Source: Owenia fusiformis (taxonomy: Eukaryota > Annelida > Polychaeta > Sabellida > Oweniidae). From it: a DNA stretch of 64,000 nucleotides. Positions within the stretch are counted from its first letter, which is position 1. The number at the start of each line of letters is the position of its first letter. The stretch is taken from NCBI GenBank assembly GCA_903813345.2, contig CAIIXF020000002.1:4938001-5002000 (forward strand). The letters are read 5' to 3'. The notes below the pieces were generated by a model. That model was not told where the DNA came from, did not search any database, and saw only the letters and a list, made by a program, of their open reading frames with translations. Shown here piece by piece: positions 17,782 to 63,954 of this stretch. Both the position numbers and the translations under genes were made by a program.

Positions 17782-19228
17782 AGGTTCTACAACATGAGTC
17801 AGAACATCCCCAGGTTCTACAACATGAGTCAGAACATCCCCAGGTTCTACAACAACATGATTCAGAACATCCCGAGGTGCTACAACATGAGTCAGAACAT
17901 CATCAGGTTCTACAACAACATGAGTCAGAACATCCCCAGGTTCTACAACAACCTGATTCAGAACATCCATCACCAGGTTCTACAACAACATGAGTCAGAA
18001 CATCCCAAGGTTCTACAACAACATGAGTAAAAACATCATCAGGTTCTACAACAACATGCGTCAGGACATCATCAGGTTCTACAACAACAGGAGTCAAAAC
18101 ATCATCAGGTTCTACAACAACAGGAGTCAAAACATCATCAGGTTCTACAACAACATGAGTCAGAACATCATCAGTGTCTACAACAACAGGAGTCAGAACA
18201 TCATCAGGGTCTACAACAACAGGAGTCGGAACATCATCAGTGTCTACAACAACAGGAGTCAAAACATCATCAGGTTCTACAACAACATGAGTCAGAACAT
18301 CATCAGGTTCTACAACAACATGAGTCAGAACATCATCAGGTTTTACAACAACATGAGTCAGAACATCATCAGGTTTTACAACAACATGAGTCAGAACATC
18401 ATCAGTGTCTACAACAACAGGAGTCAAAACATCATCAGGTTCTACAACAACATGAGTCAGAATATCATCAGGTTCTACAACAACATGAGTCAGAATATCC
18501 ATCACCAGGTTCTACAACAACATGAGTCAGAACATCCCCAGGTTACAACATGAGTCAGAACATCCCCAGGTTCTACAACATGAGTCAGAGCAATGCATCC
18601 CCAGGTTCTACAACAACATGCGTCAGAACATCATCAGGTTCTACAACAACCTGAGTCAGAACATCATCAGGTTCTACAACATGAGTCAGAGCAATGCATC
18701 CCCAGGTTCTACAACAACATGCGTCAGAATATTCCCAGATTCTACAACAACAGGAGTCAGAACACCATCAGGTTCTACAACAACATGAGTCAGAACATCA
18801 TCAGGTTCTACAACAACATGAGTCAGAACATCATCAGGTTTTACAACAACATGAGTCAGAACATCATCAGTGTCTACAACAACAGGAGTCAAAACATCAT
18901 CAGGTTCTACAACAACATGAGTCAGAACATCATCAGGTTCTACAACAACATGAGTCAGAACATCCCCAGGTTACAACATGAGTCAGAACATCCCCAGGTT
19001 CTACAACATGAGTCAGAGCAATGCATCCCCAGGTTCTACAACAACATGCGTCAGAACATCATCAGGTTCTACAACAACCTGAGTCAGAACATCATCAGGT
19101 TCTACAACATGAGTCAGAGCAATGCATCCCCAGGTTCTACAACAACATGCGTCAGAATATTCCCAGATTCTACAACAACAGGAGTCAGAACACCATCAGG
19201 TTCTACAACAACATGAGTCAGAACATCA
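17782..19228. repeat. 33-bp minisatellite of about 44 units with higher-order duplication
   Basis: Units of the type AGGTTCTACAACAACATGAG followed by TCAGAACATCATC are repeated for 1.45 kb; some units are 30 bp, lacking one AAC, or carry an extra GCAATG. A block of about 260 bp starting at 18541 is repeated nearly exactly at 18969, a shift of 428 bp. The unit has no stop in most frames on either strand, so many overlapping open frames appear: VLQQHESEHHQ or NNMSQNIIRFY forward, VVVEPDDVLTH reverse. That is expected of any 33-bp unit without stops. One forward frame (19122-19502) runs out of the array into unique sequence for about 90 codons, so use as an exon cannot be fully excluded. Confidence 0.9.
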
Positions 19229-41300: not shown

Positions 41301-43800
41301 GTTTTACAAAACCAATGATGACAATAGTTTTGTGATAATTACTTCACTTACAAGTATTTATTACAGGTCGTGTAGACCCCTGTTGGTTGATTTATAGCAA
41401 AAACATTGGGATTTGCACGTTGGCGACGCTGCACTTTTTTAATAGATCTTTTAATTTAGAACTCCACAGTTAGAAACAAAAAATCCAAGAAGACCTAACA
41501 TATTCCCCCGTCCACTGCATCTATTCATTAGCCATTCAATTGTTAACTCTCTCTTGAAAAAATAAATCTTCAAGATTTGTTGAATTGTTTTCAACCGAAA
41601 ATCAGCTAGATCTACTCCCCCCTCCGTTCATTTCTTCTGATCACCGGGCGTGATTCTTATTTGAGACTATATTTAACGAAAAGGGCACAAAACTCTTAGT
41701 TTGAGAGGGATTTTCTCTAAACTTACAGTATTGATTGACCTGGAATGTGGAACCAATTATAGAGACTACTTTTCCATGTTTTTCCAACACGGTTACAGTA
41801 ATAGAGTTCGCACAATGGGGGAACTTTAGGGTACAATATAGTAGCCCGGACAGAATTGTTCAATGGTCACTTTTTCTTGAATAATTTTTTTAATTTTCAG
41901 TATTATCAAAATCTGATTACATATTTGAGAACTAGAGTATAATTCTGACATACAAAAAAAATATTTAAGGAATGTCTCTTAATTTATTGATATTATAGAC
42001 CTTCATAGTATAAGTGACGCAAATACATAATTCACCATTTTGTCTCATATTTTGTTCAAAAATGGCGGAATGTTTTGTGGTTTAAATGTTCAGTTGAAAG
42101 TTAATATTTAAGAAATGTCATAGGCCTATGAAATAATGTGGACTGCTACTTTGGTATGAGGTAATGACTGCATTTATAAAATTTTGTTATAAATTGACTT
42201 GTATGTATACCAGTACTTAAAAAGGTTTGTACATTGTATGTACAGTATATTGGTAACGTCACAGGACACGTTTTTTGGCCATTCCATTGTTACTCGAAGT
42301 GGATTAGCAACCCTAGTTCGTTTAACCTGTGCAACTATAGGGTCATATTGCCATAGTTTGTAGTGTATTTCCCAGTCACAAGCCTCTTAACCCATCCTTG
42401 GCATTCATGTTAATTGTTCTTCAGCTTTTCAATGGCCTCTGAGATGGCTGTTTGGAGCTCTTGAAAAGATTGGGGACCTTAACTCTCATCACACCCCGCA
42501 CATTGGGGCGCCACCTTTTCACATCCTCTTGAACACAACCCAGATCATTTCAACAGATTTGACTTCATATACCCTTGGAGGGAGTTGACCTCTTGTATTT
42601 GATGATTAGTCAGTTGGTGCATTATATCAGGATTGTAAAGGTGGCAGCATGACCCTATAGGCCTATGACAATCATTAAATATTTACTCTCAACCTAACAT
42701 TCAAATTCACGAAATATGCTGCCATTTTGAACAAATATGAGGCAAAATGATGAATTATGTATTTGCGTCAGTCATACTATGAATGCCTATAATATCAATA
42801 AATTAAGAGATATTCCTTAAATATTTTTGTTGTATGTCAGAATTTTACTCTAGTTTTCAAATATGTGATCAGACTTTGATAATACTGAAAATTAAAAAAG
42901 TTATTAAAGAAAAAGTGACCATTGAACGATTCTGTCCGGGCTACTAGGTTTAGGGTTCATAATTATTCTTCTTTAAATCTAGATACCATATACCATATAT
43001 TTTCTATTATACCATATACCATATTTTTTACACCTCTTATACCATATACGATAAATTTTGCCCCCTCTTATACAATATACAATAAATTTTCAGCCTCTTA
43101 TACGATATACAATATCTCTATACACCCCCCCCTCAAAATAATTTTCAAATCCTAATAGCGACCATCTTTTTATTTCTTTTTCAATGTTCAACGTCGTGTA
43201 ACAATAATATTGTTTTAGTTTAGGTGAATAGTACCCAGCCCATGTAAAATAATTATACATGTATCCAATTAAATATAATACATGATTTTATTTTCAGTGG
43301 AAAAAACTGCTTATACAGCCCAAACAACAAACAGTGCAGCGCGCACGATTACTGTGCATGATAACTCAAAAAATGAAATCATTGCACTTATTTTCTTATG
43401 CATTGTAATTATCATAACTATTTTTGTCTTGAACTTTGTGATCATTAAACGTGTTAATGAAATTAATAACAAGATGCAAAATGAATTGATCAAGGTGCAA
43501 ACAGAACCCCTCATAGAAGGTACCATGCAAACAATACCCCTCATAGAAGGTACCATGCAAACAGAACCCCTCATAGAAGGTACCATGCAAACAGAACCCC
43601 TCATAGAAGGTACCATGCAAACAGAACCCCTCATAGAAGGTACCGTGCAAACAGAACCCCTCATAGAAGGTACCATGCAAACAGAACCCCTCATAGAAGG
43701 TACCATGCAAACAGAACCCCTCATAGAAGGTACCGTGCAAAAAGAACCCCTCATAGAAGGTACCGTGCAAACACTGTCACAATGTCAGCTTGGTGTGTAG
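32384..43800 (+). CDS. SUEL-type lectin domain, single-pass membrane protein with tandem-repeat tail (3 exons, 5' end missing)
   Basis: Exons 32384-32438, 33017-33340 and 43298-43800 join in phase (all borders phase 1, GT-AG) into 293 codons plus TAG. Exon 1 encodes a hydrophobic signal-peptide core (IAIALLISWCLVVNA) but no ATG, so a start exon is missing. Exon 2 is a Cys-rich domain of about 105 residues; the spacing TITC-14 residues-...-TCNGF-...-KCNGYTKCTF-...-CKTY resembles SUEL/L-rhamnose-binding lectins, which bind galactose or rhamnose on cell surfaces. Exon 3 has a Thr/Ser stalk, a transmembrane helix (IIALIFLCIVIIITIFVLNF), a basic IIKR stop-transfer, and nine 10-residue TEPLIEGTMQ repeats before SQCQLGV. 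Expected topology: lectin outside, repeats in the cytoplasm. Intron 2 (10 kb) is full of foldback elements. Extra phase-1 exons inside it cannot be excluded. Exon 3 belonging to another gene is the main alternative. Confidence 0.6.
32477..32591. mobile_element. 115-bp MITE with GGGTAG flanking duplication
   Basis: The ends CAGGGGCGGATCC and TAATCCGCCAGT are inverted repeats of hAT-like type (CAG...). GGGTAG occurs directly before (32471-32476) and after (32592-32597). The interior is GGCC/GGGCCC-rich. It sits in intron 1 of the lectin-receptor gene, 38 bp after its donor. Related ends occur at 28758 and 44103. Confidence 0.75.
33481..36746. mobile_element. 3.3-kb foldback element in lectin-gene intron 2
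   Basis: The termini TAGCGCAGTCAGATGTCC and GGACATCTGACTGCGCTA are perfect inverted repeats. The arms run inward for about 0.9 kb with many small differences: CTTTTTCAGGAAAGCAACAA, TCGGGGCAAGTGAT, CAAATATGGGACATCAAGTA all return inverted at 35760-36720. The unpaired centre (about 34400-35690) includes a dispersed repeat shared with 48.9 kb and a C run. No transposase is recognisable. Possible 3-bp GTA duplication at the flanks, too short to trust. Confidence 0.8.
34440..34757 (+). repeat. Dispersed repeat, first copy
   Basis: ACATACCTATTTTCTTAAAA through AATTGTTGCACCTTTAA is shared in the same orientation with 48905-49445. The 84-codon frame at 34412-34666 falls in this repeat and is not conserved in the second copy, which has stops, so it is not a gene. 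Confidence 0.7.
36747..37332. other. Intron sequence without further features
   Basis: Within intron 2 of the lectin-receptor gene. I see no exon-like block or repeat here. Confidence 0.4.
37342..37645. mobile_element. 304-bp Mutator-like MITE with 9-bp target-site duplication
   Basis: The left terminus CAAGGAGGATTGGCTCCCAG and the right terminus CTGGGAGCCAATCCTCCTTG are perfect inverted repeats. TATAAGCAG is present directly outside both ends (37333-37341 and 37646-37654). A 9-bp duplication is the hallmark of Mutator/MULE-type transposition. No coding capacity. A diverged single end (CAAGGAAGATTGGATTCCAG) occurs at about 44012. Confidence 0.9.
37806..37960. repeat. Short tandem repeat, CTTATACCATATACAATATT type
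   Basis: About three to four units of roughly 30 bp follow a G run and GTGTATAGAG. A related array lies at 42975-43130, where it ends in CTCTATAC and a C run, so the G/C-run border is inverted between the two places. Confidence 0.7.
38960..40604. mobile_element. Composite inverted-repeat element with internal GCC-rich tandem array and (GGAC)n
   Basis: The outer arms of about 100 bp are reverse complements (AACAGGTGCATATGTTAG, CCAATGCATTAACTCCAG on the left; their complements at 40520-40604). Inside, 39075-39190 is inverted against 39365-39475. From about 39560 to 40135 come four to five units of about 135 bp built on AAAATGGCGGCCATTTTT and CAAAATCGCTCCACTACTTT. At 40402-40453 there is a GGAC/GTAC simple repeat. 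The several short frames (39066-40055) result from these repeats. Confidence 0.75.
40797..41653. mobile_element. 857-bp foldback element
   Basis: The termini TCACGCCCGGTGATCTGA and TCTGATCACCGGGCGTGA, with GAAATGAACGGAGGGGG next to them, are near-perfect inverted repeats. The arms continue through GGCGCAGCGTCGCCAACGTG and AAACATTGG to about 40920 and back from 41390. In intron 2 of the lectin-receptor gene. Confidence 0.85.
41840..42945. mobile_element. 1.1-kb foldback element
   Basis: The termini AGTAGCCCGGACAGAATTGT and CGATTCTGTCCGGGCTACT are inverted; the arms run about 300 bp inward (for example AGAACTAGAGTATAATTCTG, AAATACATAATTCACCATTT) and end at CATAGGCCTATG near 42120 and CTATAGGCCTATG near 42655. 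The loop, read on the minus strand near 42400-42560, contains a short helix-like frame (FQELQTAISEAIEKLKNN) that could be a transposase C-terminal relic, which I cannot confirm. Confidence 0.8.
42975..43130. repeat. Tandem ACCATATAC / CTTATACRATATAC repeat
   Basis: About five units of roughly 30 bp ending in a C run; related to 37806-37960. It lies about 170 bp upstream of the transmembrane exon. Confidence 0.65.
43501..43770 (+). repeat. Coding 30-bp tandem repeat, nine units
   Basis: Nine head-to-tail copies of ACAGAACCCCTCATAGAAGG plus TACCATGCAA inside the last exon of the lectin-receptor gene. Only a few single-base differences exist between units (ATG/GTG, GAA/ATA, ACA/AAA), so the expansion is recent or kept uniform. 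The 30-bp length keeps the frame, giving TEPLIEGTMQ repeats. Minus-strand frames across the same interval are by-products. Confidence 0.95.
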
Positions 43801-49751: not shown

Positions 49752-50345
49752 TTGAATTTGAAAGTCAACAATTAAGTCTATTGGGGAACATCGCTGCACC
49801 ACACTGCAGCCATTGGTCAATGTTACCTCCACATTGTACATTGATACTAGGATTTGAAAGTCAACAAGTCTATTGAGGTTTAAGGAACATTGCTGCACCA
49901 CACTGCAACCATTGGTCAATGTTGCCACCACATGGTACATTGATACTAAGATTTGAAAGTCAACAAGTCTATTGAGGTTTAAGGAACATTGCTGCACCAC
50001 ACTGCAGCCTTTGGTCAATGTTGCCTCCGCATGGTACATTGATACTAAGATTTGAAAGTCAACAAGTCTATTGAGGTTTAAGCAACATGGCTGCACCACA
50101 CTGCAGCCATTGGTCAATGTTGCCTCCGCATGGTACATTGATACTAAGATTTGAAAGTCAACAAGTCTATTGAGGTTTAAGGAACATTGCTGCACCACAC
50201 TACAGCCATTGGTCAATGTTGCCTCCACATGGTACATTAATACTAAGATTTGAAAGTCAATAAGTCTATTGAGGTTTAAGGAACATTGCTGCTCCACACT
50301 GCAGCCATTGGTCAATGTTGCCACCACATGGTACATTGATACGTG
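49752..50345 (-). repeat. 99-bp tandem array: the DYNC2H1 C-terminal coding end in six copies
   Basis: The anchor GGAACATTGCTGCACCACAC (plus strand) recurs at 49785, 49884, 49983, 50082, 50181 and 50280, exactly 99 bp apart. The last copy is the real end of the dynein gene (its stop codon is at 50266-50268); the other five lie downstream. Each spells NVPCGGNIDQWLQCGAAMFL or a slight variant, followed by the stop. Because 99 is divisible by three, a stop-poor frame runs through the array. Among differences, several are silent (GGT/GGA, TGT/TGC, GGA/GGT); others change residues (W to R, F to L) or add a stop (CAG to TAG in the copy at 50181). Confidence 0.95.
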
Positions 50346-53300
50346 CCACAATTCTGTCTCGCTCAGTACTGTAGTAGATAGGCAGGGATATCACATCATT
50401 CATGTCATAAGGATCAGGGACGTCCTACAATAGAGAAAATATATGAGATTATTGAACTAGGATTCAGTACTTACAATTTTATGACTGGTTTGTCAAATAA
50501 CCAATTCCATGAGTAAACTTTTGAGTGGACAAATATATTTCTATACAAGTTAGACATCTATGGGATGCTGACTGGTCTGAAATTAACTTTGACCTTTTGA
50601 CCCACATCTAATTTAATGTTGTTTTTTGTTATTTGAAAAAGATGTTTTAATGACAAACCTTTGGTATCCATGCTACTACACAATCAGGCACAGCAGACAC
50701 ACTTGGAGAGTCTCTCTGATTCTCAGACAGTCTTGTTCCATCAAATGTGCATCCTTCAAGTTGGAGACCCCCTAGTTTAACCATGATCTTGGCATTAGAA
50801 ATGCTTCCCTTCCAAGATACAGTGAACTTTAGACTATCCATGGAAACCTGCATCTCCCTGAATTAAACAAGGGTAAATAATAATTTATTATTAGTATATA
50901 CTGCTCTACCTTAGTGACTAATATGTCATGATATGACATCTAAAGAGTCAATAAAAGATATAATATCTAAATACAAAAACAGAAAAATGCAAGAAATGGG
51001 TAAGGAATTCAATGATATTCTAATCTCCGGATTCTAATATTAACTTGGTATAATGGATATCTTCCAAACAAATGCCAATGGGAAATCCATAACCTTTCAC
51101 GATTTTACATGTCATTTTTTTAAAATCCTAAAGTGTATTTCAGCACAAGCCAAACTGGGTCGTATTTGCTAGGAAATCATTCACCATCAATAAACTCGTT
51201 GAGTTGGAATCTCAGTTTCATATAGTTCAATTTAGTGATTGAACATACATGTATTTTGTACAATATTACATATCAGTACAAACAAATACCTGGCAGTCTG
51301 CTGTCTCAGTGCATTCAGGAATGTATCAGGTTTGAAAAGTTCAGATAAATCAAGTGTATCCTTCAATAAAGACCCCCTCTCAGCTTTCCCAACCCAGCTC
51401 TGTATAGCGTTGGCCCTGGTAACAAGACCCCTTAGATACTGCATAGGATCTTCTGGTCCATCACATTTACTCAACCAGCTCATTGGAGTCTGAAATTGGA
51501 AAGTGCAATAAGTATTGCAAACTCAAATTTTGTTCATATCAATTTCATGCATTTTCAAGATAACTGACAGGTAATTAATTGGAAGCATGTGCTATTCTCC
51601 GAGACATTTTAAACTTCATTTTATCAGTTATTCCCAATAAGTCAAAATACATTTTATCTCAAAATCAAAGAGTTCTTGTGACACAAGTCAGAATTGTAAA
51701 ATAAAATGATAGGAGAAAAAGATTGTGACAAATTTTTTGAAACTAACTCTTAGATCCTGAAGAACATACCTCTTGATTAAGCAAAGCAGCCGCCAGATTC
51801 TGAACCTCATTAGAGAGCAGCTGAGTGCCTCTAATCACTTTACTAAGTGATGCAAGTGACGCATGCACGCTCTGTACCAGTTTGATAGCGTTAAATTGTT
51901 CTAGCAAGATGAATGAGGTTGTAGGGGGTGTGTTGCCAGTCTTGTCACTTGGTGCTGCAATCTTCATTTGAATCAGTTGTGATCCCTGAAATATAGAAAA
52001 AATATTGGTTGTTATTTTTAAGCTATTTTCAACATTGCATTCTTTTATGATACACACACACAACCCTGAATACATGTATGTCAGAATTACCTGTGAGATT
52101 CTTTTCAATTCAGCCTATAATTTCAAATCTCAAATCATATTATGACTAATTCAGAGTCCTATCCTTGTCAGGACTAGATATTACTGAGCGGAATTTATCG
52201 AAAACTGGCAGAGAATAGATTTATTTCAGATGCTTCTATGTCATTTTGTTCAAAATCAGTAGACACTTTGAGTATGGACCTACATGTGTTCAAACAAAGC
52301 ATAAACATATAAAATGGAAAAAATGTAGAACAACACAGGAGCAGACCTGAAAGTGATTTTAGAAGGGAGAACCTGCACCAATGTACCAACAAACTGTTCA
52401 AATATGCAAAAGAAAACAGTATTCACACATGTACAAGTATATCGATTTTCCAAGAGAACACATTTGAATTCTCTCATTTAGAAGAGGTGTGAATTATCAA
52501 TTCAGAATGTTATTTCATGAACAATACAATTCATCAATAATTTATATAATGATACATACGTTTATTTATTTACTTTATTGATGCCTTTATTTATATAATT
52601 GATAATTAAGTGGATATCCTAATCAAAGTTATGATATGGTACATGTAATTGATGACCCTTGAATTCAATAATTGGACAAATGTCAACATCAAGGTTGATC
52701 AAGATGCCCTATTCAAAACTCTAAGTGCATCAGTGAAAGACTTTTGGGACTGTATAAATACATGATCTCTGTCTGGTGTCAAGAAATGTTAGGTTGGATA
52801 AAGTGATATTGAATCAATACTTTGAACTAACATTTGCTCTGAATAACATGATATCTGTCTATTCCTTTAAGACTCATGCTTGTCATATGAGATACAAATA
52901 AAAGTTAATATTTTTGCTTGTCAGAGTGAAGAACATCATTTAACTGCGTTTGAAGGATTTGCAAAGATGTACTTCAGAATTCTCATCTTCTCTCTTTTCA
53001 ATTCTGCGTTATCAACACACCTCAGTGTTCCTTTAGCAAGACAAGAAAACTTCCTGATTACGCGAGGGGAAAAATTCAACACAACAGATTTAGTTGCAAC
53101 TTTGAATGTATCACTTGAACTTGAATGCATCTCAGAATGTTTGAAAGTCATAACATGCGCAGGAGTGAACTTCAATGGAAATGATTCCAAATGTGAGCTC
53201 ATAAAATACAAAGGAATTATATCGAATAAAACACTTGATGCTGATTGGATGTCTGCCCATATTGGCGATTATTTGGAAAATGGCTGCAAAGCTCTAAAGG

Positions 53301-56300
53301 ACCGTAGAGGGGATATGGAGATTGATTACTACCCTATTCTCCTAGATGGATCTAGTGAGCCAATTTTAGTCCTGTGTTATGATGGATGGACAATCCTCCA
53401 ACATCGTCAAGATGGCACGCTTGATTTCAATCAAACTTTAGATGCTTACATAAATGGATTCGACAACGGGGAATCAGAGAACTGGTTGGGGCTCCACAGA
53501 ATACATCAGATAACAACATCAGCTCAATATGTAGCTAGGCTGTCAGTTATAGACAGGAATGGAGCCTCACATTTTGCTGACTATCAAACAATACATGTAT
53601 CAGATGAAACTCGGAACTATGAATGCACACTGACAGATTTTATCATGGGTTCAGTTAACGATGGATACAGTATTTTGGGAAAGATATTCAGGACTTTTGA
53701 TTTCGATAATGACATGTCATGCGGGGCACAAGATGGTGGCGGATGGTGGTTTGACGATGATTGCTCTGATGATGTTATGTTCAATGGTGTGTACCAGACT
53801 AATGGGTCACAAACTACAGGAAGAGGAATACACTGGGGCTTCACCAATAACAATGGCAGTGAATCATTTCTTGAAAGTACAATTATGGTTATAAGGAAGA
53901 CGGACTATGAAGAGCTGTTTAATTTAGATCTCAATTAATTCATGACCATAACCGTATATAACACGAGGGTGGTCTGACTAACGGTCAAGGCTGTATTATG
54001 GACCGGTTTGTCCGGTTGCCATTTTATATTCCTATGTGTGGAATAATAATTGGCTCATATAGAAAGTAACTTTTCCAACTTATTGACGTTATTCTTGTAG
54101 TCCTAGAGAAGGTGCTGTTTTCATTATAAAACAATGTTTGATAAATTGTAGACTAAACGTGAAAAACACAAAGGGCAGCACAGGCAAAGTTAACATACAT
54201 TTCAAACTTGTTTTCTGAATGACTTTGAAAAAACAGCCTGACAGAAAATGGCTCATTTCTACATTAAATACCTGATTCCCCAGAATGAATATATTTTTTT
54301 TGAATTTTGAAACAACTAACTACACGTATACATGGATATACATTTTGGAGTATAATTATGACATTTAATAAATGAAAATGTTGCCCATTGTTTATATAAA
54401 GAATACTTACAGAGTTGAGTTTCTTCCATAGATTCAGGATGGGTCCTAATTCATTTGCCCACAGGTCCTTGTCAAACTTGTTGGCCTTAGCATCTGCCCT
54501 CATCAAGATTCTCAATTGAGAAATAACCTTAAAAGATGAAAAATAAATAAATCAAGTATAACAACATAAAACAAGGCATTAACATGACAAAATGTCACCA
54601 CCTAAACAATTTGGTCAATTTAAAGCAAGTTGAAAAAATACCTCTTTGACTTTTTTTGACATTGAGAAGGTCATTGAAGGTCAAATATCAAATGTAGAGT
54701 CAGATTTGAACTTCTGAGAACATGTAGATGATTTTGAAAAAAAAATTAAGTAAATTTGAAGCAAGTTGAAAAAAGACCTTTTTGACCTTGAAAAGGTCAT
54801 TGAAGGTCAAAGGTCAAATCTAAAGTCAGATTTGAACTTCTGAGAACTTGTAAAGTCAAATTTGAACTTCTGAAAAGATGTAGATGATTTTGAAAAAAAA
54901 ATTGGGTCAATTTGAAGCAAGTTGATTACAGACCTTTTTGACCTTTTTTGACCTTGAGAAGGTCATTAAAGGTCAAATGTCAAATCTAAAGTCAGATTTG
55001 AATTTCTGAGAACATGTAGATGATTTTGAAAAAAAAATTAGTCAATTTGAAGCAAGTTGAAAAAAGACCTTTTTGACCTTTTTTGACCTTGAGAAGGTCA
55101 TTGAAGGTCAAATGTCAAATCTAAAGTCAAACCTAAAGTCATATTTGAATTTCTGAGAACATGTAGATGATTTTGAAAAAAGAATTTAGTCAATTTGAAG
55201 CAAGATGAAAAAATACCTTTTTGACCTTTTTTGACATTGAGAAGGTCATTGAAGGTCAAATGTCAAATCTAAAGTCAGATTTGAATATCTGAGAACATGT
55301 AGATGATTTTGAAAAAAAATTTAGTCAATTTGAAGCAAGTTGAAAAAAGACCTTTTTGACCTTTTTTGACTTTGAGATGGTCATTGAAGGTCAAATGTCA
55401 AATCTTAAGTCAAATCTAAAGTCAGATTTGAATTTCTGAGAACACGTAGATGATTTTGAAAAATTTTTTTAGTCAATTTGAAGCAAGTTGAAAACAGACC
55501 TTTTTGACCTTTTTTGACCTTGAGAAGGTCATTGAAGGTCAAATGTCAAATCTTAAGTCAAATCTTAGGTCAGATTTGAATTTCTGAGAACACGTAGATG
55601 ATTTTGAAAAAAAAAATTAGTCAATTTGAAGCAAGTTGAAAACAGACCTTTTTTGACCTTGAGAAGGTCATTGAAGGTCAAATGTCAAATCTAAAGTCCG
55701 ATTTGGAGGTCAACTGTCAAATCTAAAGTCAAATCTAAAGTCAGATTTGAGTTTCTGAGAACATGTAGATGATTTTGAAAAAAAATTTAGTCAATGTGAA
55801 GCAAGTTGAAAAAAGACCTTTTTGACCTTGAGAAGGTCATTGAAGGTCAAATGTCAAATCTAAAGTCAGATTTGAACTTCTGAGAACATGTAGATGATTT
55901 AGAAAAAATTGAAGTCAATCTAAACAGTATTTGTTAAGTTATAGGAAGTTGTAAGAAATTGTTACAGACGCCGGACGCCAACCTCCAACCACCAACCGCC
56001 GTCGCAAAAAAACGGAGACTATAACAATATGTCACCAATTTTGGTGGTGACATAAAAAAACGGAGTCTATAACAATATGTCACCACTTTTGGTGGTGACA
56101 CATAATATCAAACTATTACTCATTAAACAACCTTTTAGGGTTTAGGGGTGAAGTGTTGGCTGAGTGGCCTATCTAGGAACCTGGGGTTTCAGAAAAGGGG
56201 AATTCATGGTAGTCAAAATGTCATGAGATTGAGCAGCATGAGCACTCTGACTTTACTCATTTAATGAGTTGGTCAAAAAACAATTTTAAAAATTATGATC

Positions 56301-59300
56301 ACTAATCATAACTAATCATTAAAATATTCTCAAAAAGGTTGCAGTACAATGTCACCAACAAGAAAATCGACCACATCTTTAAGAGAATAAGCACTGAGTT
56401 AAAGTACATGCATCACTTTAATTCTGGGGAATATTTACCTGTGAGCTAGTAATCCTCTGCGCTGATCTCTCTATGTTCTCAGGAAGGCCAAAGTGAGAAG
56501 GTTTATCAGAGTCAGGTAGTGCCTCCACTGTGTCCATGTAATCCTGAAACATGAAAGTCTCATAGCTGAAACTGCATATTAACATGGCAACATGTCACAA
56601 CCTAATTTATAATTTATTGCAATACACAAGGCATTAACATGGAAAATATCACCACCTGCCATTTTTACAGACACTGACTGCCAAATGACAAATACCATCC
56701 ACAAAAAAGTTTAAGACTATAACAATATGTCACCACTTGTGGACTCAGCGACATAGAAAGTAAAACAGTTATTATGGAATGCCACAAAAATCTAGTGGCT
56801 ATAACAATGGTTGTGACACACTTAGTGTTAAACCAAATAGAGTAAAATTGGCTTCCATGACTTGATAAGTTTTTTTACATGTACACATGGCAAACGATTT
56901 TGCAAAATTAACATTACATGTATGCTAAAGATGAGGGCGTTTCCTCTTTCCTATATTGCACAGGAAACTGACAATATTAAATGTTACATGAAAAACGTTC
57001 ATAGCTTTGCATCAAGTCTGGTTCCACAATACCCCATCCCTATGTGAACTTTAGGATATGAAAGGGGAGTACACGATACCAACTAACTTTTAATACACAA
57101 GTACTTACATTATATTGTGTGGAGTTGGGTATCTTGATAGGCCCAAGTCTTTTGGAGCCACGTGATTGGCTGCTTAACATTTGGGGATCAAAAAACTGTT
57201 TGAGATATGATTCCATGACGCGTACATCAAATGTATTGTCCACTCTACCACCATATATGGCAAACTTTAACAGTCCATGCACGAAGTTCCATTTTACTTC
57301 TCCTTTTACTAGAAAAAAAATACACAACTCAAGATACATGTATGTACAGGTTGATTGATTCAAAGAAATATTCTGAAAATTAAATCGTAAAACAAAGGTA
57401 TAAAGAGTCATGTTTGGGATATTATAATCAGGATGATACTGAACAAATAGGAGAATTCTACCATTTAAATTATTCAGAAAAAAAAATCAATGTTCATTTG
57501 GATCAATACAAACAAACAACAAACACTTGGGAGGTTTGGTGTACTTTAACTATTTATTGACATGTTTATTCAAAGATTATATTTATTTCCAAGTTTAATC
57601 AATATCAATAGTACAAGTACATGTAGTCTCAATATTAAAATTATTATTACCCCCTGGTGTTATGTTGAATTTCTTTCCCATGCTTGGTCTGGTGAAATTA
57701 TCAGTTTCATTCATATTATTAATATTAAAGTCATACTTAGTTTGAATATTTTACATCATTTGTTCTGGTGATATAAGAACTGATGGGACACACCCAAGTT
57801 TGGATCTGTTATAAAGATGGCAGTGGTGTAGTTCATACAGTATATTTTAATTCTGTATGAGAAAATATAGAAGCTAATTAGGTTGACTGCTCATTCTGCA
57901 CTACCATCTTTTACCCTGAGCCTATGAACATACCTGAACAAATACGGTCCACTATTTCAGTAGCAGCACGAAGATCTGACAGAGAGAACTCATAGAATTT
58001 TGTCCATCCCTGAAATATAAATACAGATACAGTATTTTAATCTGTGGATACAAACGAATATAAAAAAAAATTAGAACAAGTTAAGTACACAATATAATCA
58101 AGGTTTAAATCAAAATCTGAGCTAGGATCAAATAAAATCAAATGGTGAGTGCCTTCATAAAAAATGGGCAAAGGGAAACTTCCTTAAACTTAATGTAAGT
58201 AGGTTTACCTGTGGTATGTAGTTTCTCCTCTCCTGGCATATAGCATGGAACCATGCAAGTGCCAGTAGGGCCTGACTTCTGACAACACTACCCCCCTTTG
58301 ACACAAAGTCTGGGGCCCACGTGTCATATGTACGCAGCAGGTTCTTCTTAATACCTGGAGGAGCCTGAAAACAAATATTTCTTGTGTTCTTGAAAATGTA
58401 CATAAAGATTACTTGTAATACATATTTAACAAATCAGGACTAGCTGACTTTTTTATCAGCATGACATTGTAGGCTTCCATGTCTTACATATCCAATATAC
58501 TACAGGCAGGAAAATTTTGGCTGAAAAAGATCAATAGTAAATTGGAACGCCAGTGTAGCAAATCTCATTGAATATTTCATCATGCTGCAAACTAGTAAAA
58601 TGCAGCTACATCATAAATGGGTGTGACATCATTTCTTTTTAATTTACATGTCATTTTCATGAAAACTGCCAATGTCTTTTAACAAAAAATGTACTGTAAG
58701 AGTTCAGTTTTTTCAAGGTGCCCTAATTTCCACTAAGTTTGCATCCAGTTTTTAACACAAATTCAGCGGCACCTGAATTTAAGGGTACATGGATTCAGGG
58801 GTACGTGGATTCGTCGAAGTTCTAAAAATTCGACCATGCATAAAATTGGCAGTTACATTCCAAAATGGCTGCCATGGCATATCACTAACCTCATAGGTGA
58901 TTTTCAAACTTGACTGCAGGAGAATAGTGGGGAATTTAGGATGAACCTCTGCTGTAAGCCACAATCTGAAAGTCTCTTTAGGCTGGAGTGAGTTCAGTTC
59001 CTGAAATAAAGAACATGTACAACTTAAAATTGAACTGTTGGAGAATAGTGGGGAATTTAGGATGAACCTCTGCTGTAAGCCACAACCTGAATGTCTCTTT
59101 AGGCTGGAGGGAGTTCAGTTCCTGAAATAAAGAACATGTACAACTTATAATTGAACTGAAGGAGAATAGTGGGGAATTTAGGATGAACCTCTGCTGTAAG
59201 CCACAATCTGAAAGTCTCTTTTGGCTGGAGGGAGTTCAGTTCCTGGAATAAAGAACATGTACAACTTATAATTGAACTGTAGGAGAATAGTAGGGAATTT

Positions 59301-62300
59301 AGGATGAACCTCTGCTGTAAGCCACAACCTGAATGTCTCTTTAGGCTGGAGTGAGTTCAGCTCCTGGAATAAAGAACATGTACAACTTATAATTGAACTG
59401 TAGGAGAATAGTGGGGAATTTAGGATGAACCTCTGCTGTAAGCCACAATCTGAATGTCTCTTTAGGCTGGAGGGAGTTCAGTTCCTGGAATAAAGAACAT
59501 GTACAACTTATAATTGAACTGTAGGAGAATAGTAGGGAATTTAGGATGAACCTCTGCTGTAAGCAACAACCTGAATGTCTCTTTAGGCTGGAGGGAGTTC
59601 AGTTCCTGAAATAAAGAACATGTACAACTTATGATTGAACTGTAAGAGAATAGTGGGGAATTTGGGATGAACCTCTGCTGTAAGCCACAACCTGAATGTC
59701 TCTTTAGGCTGGAGGGAGTTCAGTTCCTGAAATAAAGAACATGTACAACTTAAAATTGAACTGTAGGAGAATAGTGGGGAATTTAGGATGAACGTCTGCT
59801 GTAAGCCACAACCTGAATGTCTCTTTAGGCTGAAGGGAGTTCAGTTCCTGGAATAAAGAACATGTACACCTTAAAATTGAACTGTAGGAGAATAGTGGGG
59901 AATTTAGGATGAACCTCTGCTGTAAGCCACAACCTGAATGTCTCTTTAGGCTGAAGGGAGTTCAGTTCCTGAAATAAAGAACATGTACAACTTATAATTG
60001 AACTGTAGGAGAATAGTAGGGAATTTAGGATGAACGTCTGCTGTAAGCCACAACCTGAATGTCTCTTTAGGCTGAAGGGAGTTCAGTTCCTGAAATAAAG
60101 AACATGTACAACTTAAAATTGAACTGTAGGAGAATAGTGGGGAATTTAGGATGAACCTCTGCTGTAAGCCACAACCTGAATGTCTCTTTAGGCTGAAGGG
60201 AGTTCAGTTCCTGAAATATAGAACATGTACAACTTATAATTGAACTGAGGGAGAATAGTGGGGAATTTAGGATGAACCTCTGCTGTAAGCCACAACCTGA
60301 ATGTCTCTTTAGGCTGGAGGGAGTTCAGTTCCTGTAATAAAGAACATGTACAACTTATAATTGAACTGAAGGAGAATAGTGGGGAATTTAGGATGAACCT
60401 CTGCTGTAAGCCACAACCTGAATGTCTCTTTAGGTTGAAGGGAGTTCAGTTCCTGTAATAAAGAACATGTACAACTTAAAATTGAACTGTAGGAGAATAG
60501 TGGGGAATTTAGGATGAACCTCTGCTGTAAGCCACAACCTGAATGTCTCTTTAGGCTGAAGGGAGTTCAGTTCCTGAAATATAGAACATGTACAACTTAT
60601 AATTGAACTGAGGGAGAATAGTGGGGAATTTAGGATGAACCTCTGCTGTAAGCCACAACCTGAATGTCTCTTTAGGTTGAAGGGAGTTCAGTTCCTGAAA
60701 TAAAGAACATGTAAAACTTATAATTGAACTGAAGGAGAATAGTGGGAAATTTAGGATGAACCTCTGCTGTAAGCCACAACCTGAATGTCTCTTTAGGTTG
60801 AAAGGAGTTCAGTTCCTGGAATAAAGAACATGTACAACTTATAATTGAACTGCAGGAGAATAGTGGGGAATTTAGGATGAACTTCTGCTGTAAGTCACAA
60901 CCTGAATGTCTCTTTAGGCTGGAGGGAGTTCAGTTCCTGGAATAAAGAACATGTACAACTTATAATTGAACTGTTGGAGAATAGTGGGGAATTTAGGATG
61001 AACCTCTGCTGTAAGTCACAACCTGAATGTCTCTTTAGGCTGGAGGGAGTTCAGTTCCTGGAATAAAGAACATGTACAACTTATAATTGAACTGTTGGAG
61101 AATAGTGGAGAATTTAGGATGAACCTCTGCTGTAAGCCACAACCTGAATGTCTCTTTAGGTTGGAGGGAGTTCAGCTCCTGGAATAATAAACATATATAC
61201 AACTGTCTTATTGTACTTCAGGGTTGAGACCTCTGTATGGCATTGTCCTTTGGACAATAAGGTATGAGCTTTAAGGTGGATTTCTCTTTGTGATGTTTTT
61301 GAGTTGTTATATGCTATTTCTCAAAATTTAGATTTATAATATTTTTAGACATGTATATGTAGATCAAAGTCAAGGTTTCAAAATTGTGGTTGCCTACAGT
61401 ATGATTTCAGGGTAGATTATTATCATTTCTTTTTATACCTTCTCCAGAACAGGTAGCCATGCAGTGACCAAGTGGAGATTCTTCAGACACAGCCAATCTC
61501 CATTCTCTGCACTCTCCTTGAGCAGCTTCATAGCCAACTCTGCCTGGCCTTGACCCATTGCAACCTGTAACAGAATAAGCCAAGTCTTGAACATGCATAT
61601 AAAGTGCACTGTAAAAGTTGAATAGTTTAGCTTTTAAAACAAATCTCATTTGTCATGCTATGTTCATACATGTATTTGGTCTGATTTTCAGTACCAGTGC
61701 CCAGCCGATGAGTATTTTGTTCAGAATTGAATTCGGATTTGAATTCAGCCAGGCGAAGGTGTTTAGGATCAGAGCAAATGTGACCACCGCATTGCATAGC
61801 AATATGACTTTAAACAACAGGTAATTGTTTTATATTTGTACATGCCTTTAAACAAAAAAAGCACATTCAACGTAAAGAAGTCTCTTTAAACATATGCATG
61901 AATGGCATCTTTATATATGACATACCTGGTGGTAGCGTTCTGCACCGATCATCTCATTGGCCAACTCCTGTAGCTCCTGGGAAGGATCTGCTCCAGGGGA
62001 GATAACAATCAATACAGGCTCAGCTGGTATGGTTTCATTTTGGTAGAGTCTCTTTAGGTTGACAGTAGGGGGAGATACCTCTTTCATATCTAGTTAGAAA
62101 GAATAAAAAGCAGTATGTTTCATAACTATTGTGAACAGAATTATGTACAATATAGATTTCCCTATAGCCATTAGTGGATATAAATAACAAGTCTGTTACA
62201 TCAAGTCAACCATCTCAAATCTGTTTTGGCATTAGGCTTTCATATTGCAATATATGAAATAGATATAACTGTGTAATTCTTTGTGACAACAACCTACCTA

Positions 62301-63954
62301 GGGCTTTACATACAAAGCTAGTCATGGCACTCTGAAGGCGATCGGGGCGAGTTGCCTGTATGACTAGTACTTCCTCAAAGGGAGTGATACGTCGTGAGAT
62401 TGCTGATGGGAATTCCACTTCACACTGACTACTTCTGGAAAACTGCGACCATGTACCAGAATCTGAGAACTGAAGCTCATTGTACAACTGGGGCAGGATG
62501 GACTGCAATGAATACAAGGCATATGTTAGCAACTACATGTATAATGAAAGTGGAAGAGAACTACAATTCCATTTCATCTTGGCTACTCCTGGAAAACTGC
62601 GACCATGTACCAGAATCTGAGAATTGTAGCTCATTGTACAACTGGGGCAGGATGGACTGCAATATATGAGATAAGATTATAAAATTCAATGATCTTGTTT
62701 ATAAAATGCAAAATAGAAAAGAATTGAATCGCTTTTTAATTACCAAGTAATAAAGGAAACAGGTATGTATTTTAAGCTCTCATTATTTTTTTCAGACAAG
62801 GCATTAACATGCAATGTCACCACCTGCCATTTGTTACAGACGCTGAATGTTGAACACCAACTGCCAAACACCATCCACAGAAAAGTTGGAGTATATAAAA
62901 ATCAGATACTGTATAAGTGGTATTTAATCCGAGTGGTTAATTTTCCGAATGGTCAAATTTCATCATTTTCCTAATTTTAATTTTCCTAATGATAAGAAAC
63001 CTCCCATTGGATAACATTATAAAGACATTATTTCCGACATTTAATTTTCCGAACCTGGCAAAAGTTAGGAAATAGGCAAATTAAATGATTAGGCAAAATT
63101 ACCACTTATACAGTACTTCATTTAACTTTTAGTGAAAGACATGAATTACCTTTAAAGCTGCAACAGCTTGGATTCTTTCATCATCCACCCAATTCGGCTT
63201 GTCTCTTCCAACATCCTTTACATCAGCTACCATTAGCCCAACAAACATCTCCCATTCCTACAATATTCATGAATTTGTCAATATTATTTGCATCATTTTT
63301 TTTTATTGTTATTGTGTTTTATTTCAGTTTATAATAAAATCATATACATCAAATAAGATGGAAGACCCCCTAATGGGAGTATTATCCATATTACAACGTA
63401 AAATAATGAAAAAAAATTACAAAATGTCTACACACCACTGAACCCCATCTCCACCTCAGTCCCCCCCCACAACCACATGTACGATGCCTTTAGAAAAAGA
63501 ACAGTTGATCGAGTGCCAGAAATTTACATGATTTTACAGCTCATTTACAGCTCAAATGACTCCTTGGATCAAATGATCACTTTGATTCCAAATCTAGTCA
63601 GTGATCTGGAGATTCATTGAAAAATATCAATTTTTTTAAATGAATTTCTCAAAACACCTTTGACTATCAATGAACTGACTTTCTCACTTTTTTTGTCAAA
63701 AACATCAATTTGGTTCATTCTAAGAACACTTACAACATTAAAAAAGAAAAGGTCCAAAATTGACAATATTTTGACAAATTTTGACAAATCTTACTTACGT
63801 TTTCTTTGAATGACTCTGGATGCATGCCATGCACCATATGCATGGCAAACATCATTCTATCAGCCTTGAAGAGAGACCTACAGATGTACTCATATACCAA
63901 GTACTGTAGGTTTGAGATTAGAGTCTTGATCCTCATCTCAGTGCTGGATCCCTC
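50266..63954 (-). CDS. DYNC2H1: Cytoplasmic dynein-2 heavy chain, C-terminal 765 residues (15 exons; 5' part outside window)
   Basis: Exons, in transcript order: 63799-63954, 63150-63257, 62298-62502, 61926-62089, 61439-61564, 58890-59000, 58209-58364, 57934-58009, 57109-57308, 56439-56543, 54411-54527, 51770-51985, 51290-51489, 50659-50857, 50266-50424. All have GT-AG borders and matching phases; they sum to 2298 nt without a stop until TAG. The protein covers the AAA5/AAA6 part of the motor ring and the C-terminal domain: VLVIQATRPDRLQSAM, VLIVISPGADPSQELQELA, MGQGQAELA, NGDWLCLKNLHLVTAWLP, FRLWLTAEVHPKFP, RRNYIPQGWTKFYEFSLSDL, IYGGRVDN, and the dynein-2-specific ending (LEGCTFDG, SENQ.DSPSVS, NVPCGGN.DQW.QCGAAMFLK). 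DYNC2H1 is the retrograde intraflagellar-transport motor of cilia. No lesions are seen. Three exon edges are duplicated nearby, and one intron holds a fibrinogen-related gene. Confidence 0.97.
52753..52760 (+). promoter_or_regulatory. TATA box of the nested fibrinogen-related gene
   Basis: TATAAATA lies about 215 bp upstream of the favoured start codon of the intronless gene on the same strand. No other core element was identified. Confidence 0.4.
52967..53938 (+). CDS. Secreted fibrinogen-related protein with N-terminal PAN/apple-like domain, nested in a DYNC2H1 intron
   Basis: One uninterrupted exon, 323 codons from the favoured ATG (52967); an upstream in-frame ATG at 52880 would add 29 residues, but starting at MYFRILIFSLFNSALS gives a clean signal peptide. 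Then comes a PAN/apple-like segment (ECISECLKVITC ... NDSKCEL), then a fibrinogen C-terminal domain of about 205 residues: GCKALKDRRG, DGWTILQHRQDGTLDFNQT, YINGFDNGESENWLGLHRIH, the calcium-site DFDND, the Cys pair with GGGWWFDDDCSDDVMFNGVY, and GIHWGF. Such FReD proteins bind acetylated or other surface sugars in innate recognition in invertebrates; the ligand here is unknown. The early part of the domain is degenerate (DYYPI for the usual GVYTI). It lies antisense to, and wholly inside, the intron 51986-54410. The lack of introns suggests origin by retrocopy or loss of introns. A possible AATAAA occurs at 54367. Confidence 0.85.
   Translation: MYFRILIFSLFNSALSTHLSVPLARQENFLITRGEKFNTTDLVATLNVSLELECISECLKVITCAGVNFNGNDSKCELIKYKGIISNKTLDADWMSAHIGDYLENGCKALKDRRGDMEIDYYPILLDGSSEPILVLCYDGWTILQHRQDGTLDFNQTLDAYINGFDNGESENWLGLHRIHQITTSAQYVARLSVIDRNGASHFADYQTIHVSDETRNYECTLTDFIMGSVNDGYSILGKIFRTFDFDNDMSCGAQDGGGWWFDDDCSDDVMFNGVYQTNGSQTTGRGIHWGFTNNNGSESFLESTIMVIRKTDYEELFNLDLN
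54589..56051. repeat. Intronic ~150-bp tandem array rich in AGGTCA half-sites, inside a GTCACCACC-bounded repeat
   Basis: From about 54620 to 55920, eight to nine units built on GACCTTTTTTGACCTTGAGA, AGGTCATTGAAGGTCAAATG, AAATCTAAAGTCAGATTTGA, and ACATGTAGATGATTTTGAAA are repeated. The array is framed by ATGTCACCACCT (54589) and GGTGGTGACAT (56042), an inverted pair that also borders shorter relatives at 56625-56818 and 62797-62910 (both with GGCATTAACATG and TACAGACnCTGA). So the array seems to sit inside a dispersed element. It lies in the dynein intron between exons at 54527 and 56439. Confidence 0.8.
56625..56818 (+). repeat. Dispersed GGCATTAACATG...GTCACCAC repeat
   Basis: Shares GCATTAACATG, CACCACCTGCCATTT, TACAGAC, ACCATCCACA and TATAACAATATGTCACCA with the copies at 54573-56051 and 62797-62910. 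Intronic, non-coding. Confidence 0.65.
58919..61190 (-). repeat. 121-bp tandem array: dynein exon 5' half plus its 3' splice site, 19 copies
   Basis: The anchor GAGAATAGTGGGGAATTT (plus strand) recurs at 58920, 59041, 59162 and onward to 61098, always 121 bp apart: 19 copies. The first (58920-59000) is the 5' two-thirds of the functional exon 58890-59000. Each further unit has about 81 nt of that exon (LNSLQPKETFRLWLTAEVHP...) and about 40 nt of upstream intron including TTCTTTATTTCAG, so each keeps a usable-looking acceptor but none has the exon's donor. Most differences between units are third-position changes (CTC/CTT, CAG/CAA, ACA/ACT); a few are not (TGG to TGA near 60895 and 61015, TGG to TTG near 59566, GAG to GAC near 59792). 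The array fills the 2.4-kb intron between exons 61439-61564 and 58890-59000. Confidence 0.97.
62561..62656 (-). pseudogene. Partial duplicate of a DYNC2H1 exon with intact acceptor and early stop
   Basis: Lies 154 bp upstream (in transcript sense) of exon 62298-62502 and repeats its first 31 codons after an acceptor-like ATATATTGCAG. The first 26 codons differ from the parent at five places, all silent (CTT/CTA, CAG/CAA, AGA/AGG, AGT/AGC, CAG/CAA). Then residues diverge and a TAG follows at 62561-62563. The intron sequence around it is not alike, so the copy is not simply recent. If spliced in after exon 63150-63257, which ends in phase 0, it would end translation after 31 codons, as a poison exon would. 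Confidence 0.8.
62797..62910 (+). repeat. Dispersed GGCATTAACATG...GTCACCAC repeat, third copy
   Basis: AAGGCATTAACATGCAATGT, CACCACCTGCCATTT, TACAGACGCTGA and ACACCATCCACA match the other two intronic copies. After it (62915-63120) comes GTGGTA/TACCAC-bounded AT-rich sequence that folds weakly (ATACTGTATAAGTGGTA and TACCACTTATACAGTA). Confidence 0.65.

Follow-up and report, generated by a model that had tools for sequence, protein, structure and literature searches.

How does a single splice donor find its proper partner when 19 nearly equal acceptors stand in front of it? The question is raised by a locus of the annelid Owenia fusiformis, in a stretch of 64,000 nucleotides (nt) that we call the window and number from its first letter (assembly GCA_903813345.2, contig CAIIXF020000002.1, positions 4,938,001 to 5,002,000 of the forward strand). 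Here the 5' part of one exon of DYNC2H1, the gene for the heavy chain of dynein-2, is repeated head to tail together with its acceptor and the end of the preceding intron. The 19-unit array upstream of this exon is real. Its silent units carry a coding signature that was unexpected and that makes the array more interesting than the number of splice sites alone.

Nineteen units at the border of a dynein-2 exon

The host gene lies on the minus strand, and its last 15 exons (a to o) run through the window from 63954 to 50266. With GT-AG borders they join in frame into 765 residues followed by a stop codon. The product matches cytoplasmic dynein 2 heavy chain 1 over residues 3-765 (4rh7, which we take to be the human protein; E=0, 1099 bits), and the match in 6rla extends through the last residue of that chain, 4513. 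Among solved structures, the set that was compared, dynein-2 was the best match across the whole stretch; the next family, axonemal dynein heavy chain 12, reached 277 bits. The assignment to DYNC2H1 in a preliminary description of this DNA therefore holds. The repeated exon, exon f, encodes ELNSLQPKETFRLWLTAEVHPKFPTILLQSSLKITYE, which aligns to dynein-2 without gaps. The part of DYNC2H1 in the window is intact, provided that the last acceptor of the array is used.

The array boundaries in Table 1 were drawn by Tandem Repeats Finder (TRF), which reported a period of 121, 18.9 copies, a 95% match and 0% indels. When the units are anchored on the exon start, 18 of the 18 acceptor spacings are exactly 121, in agreement with the uniform period described for the 19 copies. 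Each unit does combine the 5' part of the exon with its own acceptor and a piece of intron; the exon share, however, is 87 of 111 nt, or 78%, rather than two-thirds, and the intron piece measures 34 nt instead of about 40. Only one of the 19 units, the last, is joined to exon f's own donor, as had been claimed. This 3'-most unit (copy 19, acceptor at 59000 on the minus strand) alone keeps the remainder of the exon and the donor, and it is therefore the only one able to make the normal exon.

Table 1. Features of the array and of its host gene (window coordinates).
Feature	Position	Strand	Remarks
121-bp array	58913..61194	-	19 units head to tail (34 nt intron end + 87 nt coding exon each)
Functional copy 19: full 111-nt DYNC2H1 exon f, then donor GAG/gttagtga	58890..59000	-	
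18 non-terminal units, each leading to a stop within the array	59001..61178	-	
Non-terminal acceptors	61178, 61057, 60936, 60815, 60694, 60573, 60452, 60331, 60210, 60089, 59968, 59847, 59726, 59605, 59484, 59363, 59242, 59121	-	anchored on exon start
DYNC2H1, last 15 exons (a-o), open reading frame up to stop codon	50266..63954	-	
DYNC2H1 exon e, donor facing the array	61439..61564	-	
Exon c 5' part, duplicated (2 copies)	62411..62663	-	functional exon 62502-62298; upstream acceptor 62656
Coding end of last exon with stop codon + 24 nt, period 99, 5.6 copies	49785..50342	-	TRF

The intron end and the exon start were copied together (34 + 87 nt), as in a border-spanning duplication of the type seen in the potato RNA-dependent RNA polymerase (RdRp) gene. 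The 19 head-to-tail units of 121 bp, with variants common to several units in a mosaic, have the make-up of a minisatellite or variable number tandem repeat. A complete exon with both acceptor and donor, which every unit of a mutually exclusive exon array should possess, is found in 1 of the 19 units only. The inner units diverge at about 5-6 of 121 positions, whereas copy 1, in an ungapped comparison of its intron part, departs from the unit consensus at 16 of 34 sites. The first duplication therefore looks older than the present set of units, and the recent expansion proposed earlier is only half right.

A wrong copy number introduced during assembly is extremely unlikely. Copies 6 and 9 are the sole identical pair among the 19, and the contig measures 35.8 Mb, so that an array of 2.3 kb was probably spanned by single reads. 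In a DNA search of the assembly (498 Mb) with 601 bases of the array, a search that passes over very common words, all six of the places listed fell inside the array. Rfam gave no match in the window at the gathering threshold. With Pfam PF03028 the functional exon was picked up but none of the 18 silent (dead) units, so a search of this kind is too insensitive for such arrays.

Strength of the acceptors and outcome of each choice

To score acceptors we used a weight matrix of log-odds from the other 14 acceptors of DYNC2H1, real sites being scored leave-one-out. The 19 array acceptors scored 9.9-12.3, near-equal as the preliminary description had them and above the median acceptor of the gene (15 real acceptors: median 7.6, range -7.1 to 17.0); the best other AG among 200 in the region scored 1.5. 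The AG is retained in 19 of 19 units, and the last 20 intron bases of copies 2-19 vary only at -20, -9 and -4. Candidate donors inside the units are mostly weak, with a median of 3.2 for the GT at +54 (GAG/GTTCAT) and of 1.4 for the GT at +35 (best 6.6, in one copy); exon f's own donor scored 8.4 and all 14 real donors 1.5-12.9, again leave-one-out. The exonic CAG at +87 was considered as a second class of acceptor and ruled out by its scores of -12.6 to -2.0.

When acceptor 19 is used, the reading frame stays open through the rest of the gene. The frames from all 18 others meet an in-frame stop within the array, after 39-183 nt, and this holds even for the six (copies 1, 4, 7, 10, 13 and 16) that give an exon length divisible by three. 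The earlier statement that most choices other than the last would break the frame was right in kind and too weak in degree. Skipping of exon f keeps the frame.

How the cell picks the right acceptor is a fair question, to which a known rule offers a partial answer in the form of exon definition across 111 nt. According to the excerpted text of one study, exon definition governs the recognition of splice sites whose flanking introns exceed about 250 nt, and the overall preference for the upstream of competing 3' sites is significantly reduced under long introns (PMC9225289). The other 13 DYNC2H1 introns in the window have a median length of 525 nt, with 3 of the 13 below 250, and exon definition fits the gene for this reason. 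Given the rule and these long introns, we expect the last acceptor to dominate, with some leakage to upstream acceptors. The spliceosome would mainly pair the exon f donor with the nearest acceptor, since units 18, 17 ... 1 would give exons of 232, 353 ... 2289 nt. Leakage upstream would end in an early stop and probably in decay of the transcript, so that the array would mostly be a tolerated passenger.

The same acceptors could be read as a splicing rheostat, in which upstream sites are often used, the products decay, and copy number sets the amount of productive DYNC2H1 mRNA. In their scores the 18 upstream acceptors resemble the last, and a stop follows from using any of them, as it does from a duplicated acceptor of exon c (see below); in addition, the first acceptor lies 260 nt from the exon e donor (the last lies at 2438 nt) and upstream 3' sites are preferred overall in the excerpt of PMC9225289. 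However, we found nothing to indicate that the array has been selected as a regulator, and such arrays are frequent in the sampled genome. A third array of the same gene sits after the stop codon, with no splice choice seen there, and most added units would probably make exons long for exon definition. We consider the rheostat unlikely.

Synonymous variation in the silent units

Over the 19 copies, the exon part holds 21 variants at 18 sites. Fourteen of these variants (0.67) are synonymous, where a share of 0.23-0.31 is expected for transition weights of 1-6 (P from 3e-5 to 8e-4), and codon position 3 holds 13 of the 18 variable sites (P=0.0002). Variants absent from copy 19 show the same tendency (10 of 17 synonymous, 0.59; P=0.005). 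Among the 18 dead copies the proportion of synonymous differences (pS) was 0.139 and that of nonsynonymous differences (pN) 0.019, a ratio of 0.14 (column permutation, P=0.00025).

The array at the end of the gene provides a control for translation. Of its 99-bp units, copy 1 (from 50340) is the functional one; copies 2-6 come after the stop codon and extend into the 3' untranslated region (UTR). With the degenerate tail of copy 6 dropped from the variant tests, 8 of 12 variants are synonymous (P=0.002), or 6 of 10 when the variants of the functional copy are excluded (P=0.014), and 7 of 11 variable sites are at position 3 (P=0.027); dead copies 2-5 have a pN/pS of 0.146. Because these units lie after the stop codon and show the same ratio, translation of the units is not needed for the signature and is ruled out as the general cause of the synonymous excess. 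A frame of 202 amino acids is open across the 99-bp array in another register. Its codon positions, by a hand count, do not match the third-position bias, and we regard it as an incidental result of a 99-nt unit that contains no stops in that frame. When the two arrays are pooled, with copy 6 of the UTR array and the intronic stretch of copy 1 set aside, variable sites make up 19 of 54 third positions, 8 of 108 first and second positions and 8 of 58 non-coding positions. Third positions exceed both of the other classes (P=2e-5 and P=0.014, respectively).

Splicing of the units as in-frame 54-nt exons, from the acceptor to GAG/GTTCAT, would place a variable number of 18-residue repeats in the protein. 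An open 54-nt frame followed by GT is present in 16 of the 18 upstream units, the scores of the +54 donors (and of the best one at +35) fall inside the range of real donors, and the origin of a potato RdRp intron, described in the excerpt of PMC4974935, is similar. At positions 0-53, 8 of 12 variants are synonymous, but positions 54-86, which would then be intronic, show a like signature (6 of 9), and so do the post-stop units of the 3'-UTR array. Copies 2 and 3 have a stop in the 54-nt frame, and repeats at this point would break a segment well conserved with the dynein-2 of solved structures. Such a chain of mini-exons is very improbable. About as improbable is that some units serve as mini-exons, that the dynein-2 motor thereby gains from the array an 18-residue repeat of variable length, and that the signature stems in part from this use.

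The functional copy has four exon variants relative to the consensus, all synonymous, so that no amino acid is changed, and each is common to dead copies (copy 16; copy 17; copies 15 and 17; copy 3), three of the four being shared with copies 15-17. As all four are shared, the working exon and the dead units have probably traded sequence, and this sharing, together with the identity of copies 6 and 9, bears out the proposal of homogenisation among the copies. Amino-acid changes per dead copy drop toward the functional end (Spearman -0.51, P=0.031, 18 copies), in a test run after the variant table had been seen.

We simulated exchange of this kind under several regimes. Exchange within a single lineage, with selection on the functional copy, was rejected as a source, since the synonymous share was too low in 50 of 50 settings (0.29-0.36; dead units only, 0.24-0.29). 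In the main simulation, with 250 haplotypes and a mutation setting raised along with the exchange rate, exchange between haplotypes at the functional end gave shares of 0.37, 0.37, 0.42, 0.54 and 0.50 at scaled exchange rates of 5, 20, 60, 120 and 200 (dead units only, 0.31-0.48), and events within haplotypes gave 0.24-0.30 (0.22-0.27). In this simulation the share of synonymous variants rose solely when haplotypes exchanged sequence with one another at the functional end. Single arrays with a share of at least 0.6 amounted to 35% at rates 120 and 200, compared with 11-13% for self-exchange. A pilot with 60 haplotypes, superseded by this run, was noisy and gave the same direction at 4 of 5 rates (0.23-0.38 between, 0.19-0.31 within haplotypes), with 2.6-47.6 variants per array; at its two top exchange rates, a haplotype underwent about one event or more in each generation. 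The simulations point to exchange with functional alleles on other haplotypes.

The shortfall of the single-lineage model relative to the observed 0.67, and the pN/pS of about 0.14 among dead units of both arrays, would also suit purifying selection on the dead units themselves, for instance because they frequently overwrite the functional exon and bad copies cost offspring. Yet 10 of the 18 dead units already carry an amino-acid change or a stop, which also counts against any purely functional reading. In addition, a rough estimate of turnover suggests that such selection would be too weak unless the effective population size were near ten million. We regard a load of this kind as quite unlikely.

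The structure is real and unusual, and it is most likely a tolerated minisatellite, in a genome rich in minisatellites. Probably, a border-spanning duplication seeded the array, exon definition favours the acceptor nearest the donor, and the units exchange sequence. A tandem duplication across the intron-exon border of exon f would have put an additional acceptor ahead of the genuine one, after which the turnover usual for minisatellites may have expanded the pair to 19 copies. The units would swap sequence with each other and with the functional copy, probably between haplotypes near the functional end. Many dead units would thus carry synonymous variants born in working exons.

Several points weigh against this reading. 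We infer the use of the last acceptor from its position and from the rule for long introns, and the excerpt of PMC9225289 does not say that long introns abolish the preference for upstream 3' sites. The first acceptor, just 260 nt from its donor, is at the edge where intron definition would favour it. The acceptor matrix is small and rough, with 90 of the 200 regional AGs scoring at or above the weakest real acceptor. Non-coding positions are not clearly more variable than first and second codon positions (P=0.27), a result not expected if dead units were simply neutral. No simulated setting averaged the observed 0.67 (dead units only, 0.59), the best mean being 0.54, and the functional copy differs from dead copies at 4.9 synonymous positions against 2.8 among dead copies, which the exchange model does not predict. 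The signature is only partly explained, because the observed share tops every mean and the functional copy is the more distant one. Allelic diversity, if it were to match the pS of 0.14 in dead units, would need a very diverse species.

Other arrays, known systems and meaning

The exon c duplication is a two-copy stage of the same kind of event as the exon f array. The duplicate lies 154 nt upstream with its AG intact and is 92% identical over 99 nt; splicing to its acceptor (62656) likewise gives a stop. Elsewhere in DYNC2H1 introns, a plus-strand open frame at 52880-53938, opposite to the gene, matches Fibrinogen_C (E=2e-32) and PAN_1 (E=3e-6), and 62890-63523 holds two dispersed repeats with many genomic copies at 95-100% identity (40 of 3217 candidates scored).

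A sample of 80 kb (8 places on 8 large contigs, two small-contig pieces being left out) contained 5 arrays with a period of 60 or more and at least 3 copies, one of them overlapping a 24-bp array. The 124 kb round the gene likewise contained 5, including the 121-bp and 3'-UTR arrays. As such arrays are frequent in the sampled parts of the genome, some at exon edges may be expected by chance. Outside the three big arrays that lie between 49.7 and 61.3 kb, the listing contained 29 near-repeat pairs besides exon c. In 14 translated stretches, which cover a part of these pairs, we saw no dynein-like frame by eye that would mark a further exon-edge duplication upstream; 92157-92616, 103855-104581, 114287-114493 and 121982-122097 were among those left untranslated, and the upstream exons are unmapped. 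Pieces of two small contigs (C60 and C150), considered as alternative haplotypes for an estimate of heterozygosity, matched repeats and showed no clear second haplotype. Two further arrays lie in the window. One, at 17789-19228, has 43.6 copies of 33 bp, a period that is a multiple of three, and open frames on both strands, and the Pfam matches to one frame look like chance matches on repeats. The other, at 43496-43773, has 9.3 copies of 30 bp within an open frame of 172 amino acids (a 10-residue repeat), with no Pfam match at E 0.001.

A minisatellite is reported to supply multiple splice donors to an interferon-induced transcript (gene 6-16/IFI6). There too a repeat gives its host transcript splice sites, but those are donors. 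In DYNC2H1 the strong repeated sites are acceptors, each accompanied by the larger part of a conserved coding exon, and every choice except one leads to a stop. The closest precedent is arguably the potato RdRp gene, in which a duplication over the intron-exon border yielded a new intron whose donor was taken from the upstream exon copy (PMC4974935, excerpt). In both genes the copied stretch crosses the border, so that the acceptor, its tract and the 5' part of the exon are duplicated. The potato gene, however, has two copies rather than 19, and a cryptic donor, GTAAG, with RNA-Seq support, whereas the candidate in-unit donors described here are mostly weak and known from sequence. Arrays of mutually exclusive exons likewise offer tandem exon copies from which one is to be chosen (excerpts of PMC6071210 and PMC9013439), but the present units lack the 3' end of the exon and the donor, and only the last can be normal. 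In most human minisatellites mutation is driven by complex interallelic processes, according to the excerpt of PMC2599865. The tandem units, mixed variants and probable exchange between alleles resemble that system; the difference is that one unit here is a coding exon, so that selection would tag variants passing through it. Among the matches listed in a search of open-licence papers there was no tandem array of 3' splice sites.

With one donor, 19 near-equal acceptors and 18 choices that end in a stop, the locus offers a natural set of minigenes for comparing exon definition with intron definition. Should alleles with different copy numbers exist, they would amount to dose experiments already set up in a ciliary gene. 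A record of exchange may be kept in the units as well: selection acts on the protein encoded by one copy, so the synonymous excess in silent copies would tag sequence that has passed through the working exon. If true, this would offer a way to measure gene conversion in tandem arrays.

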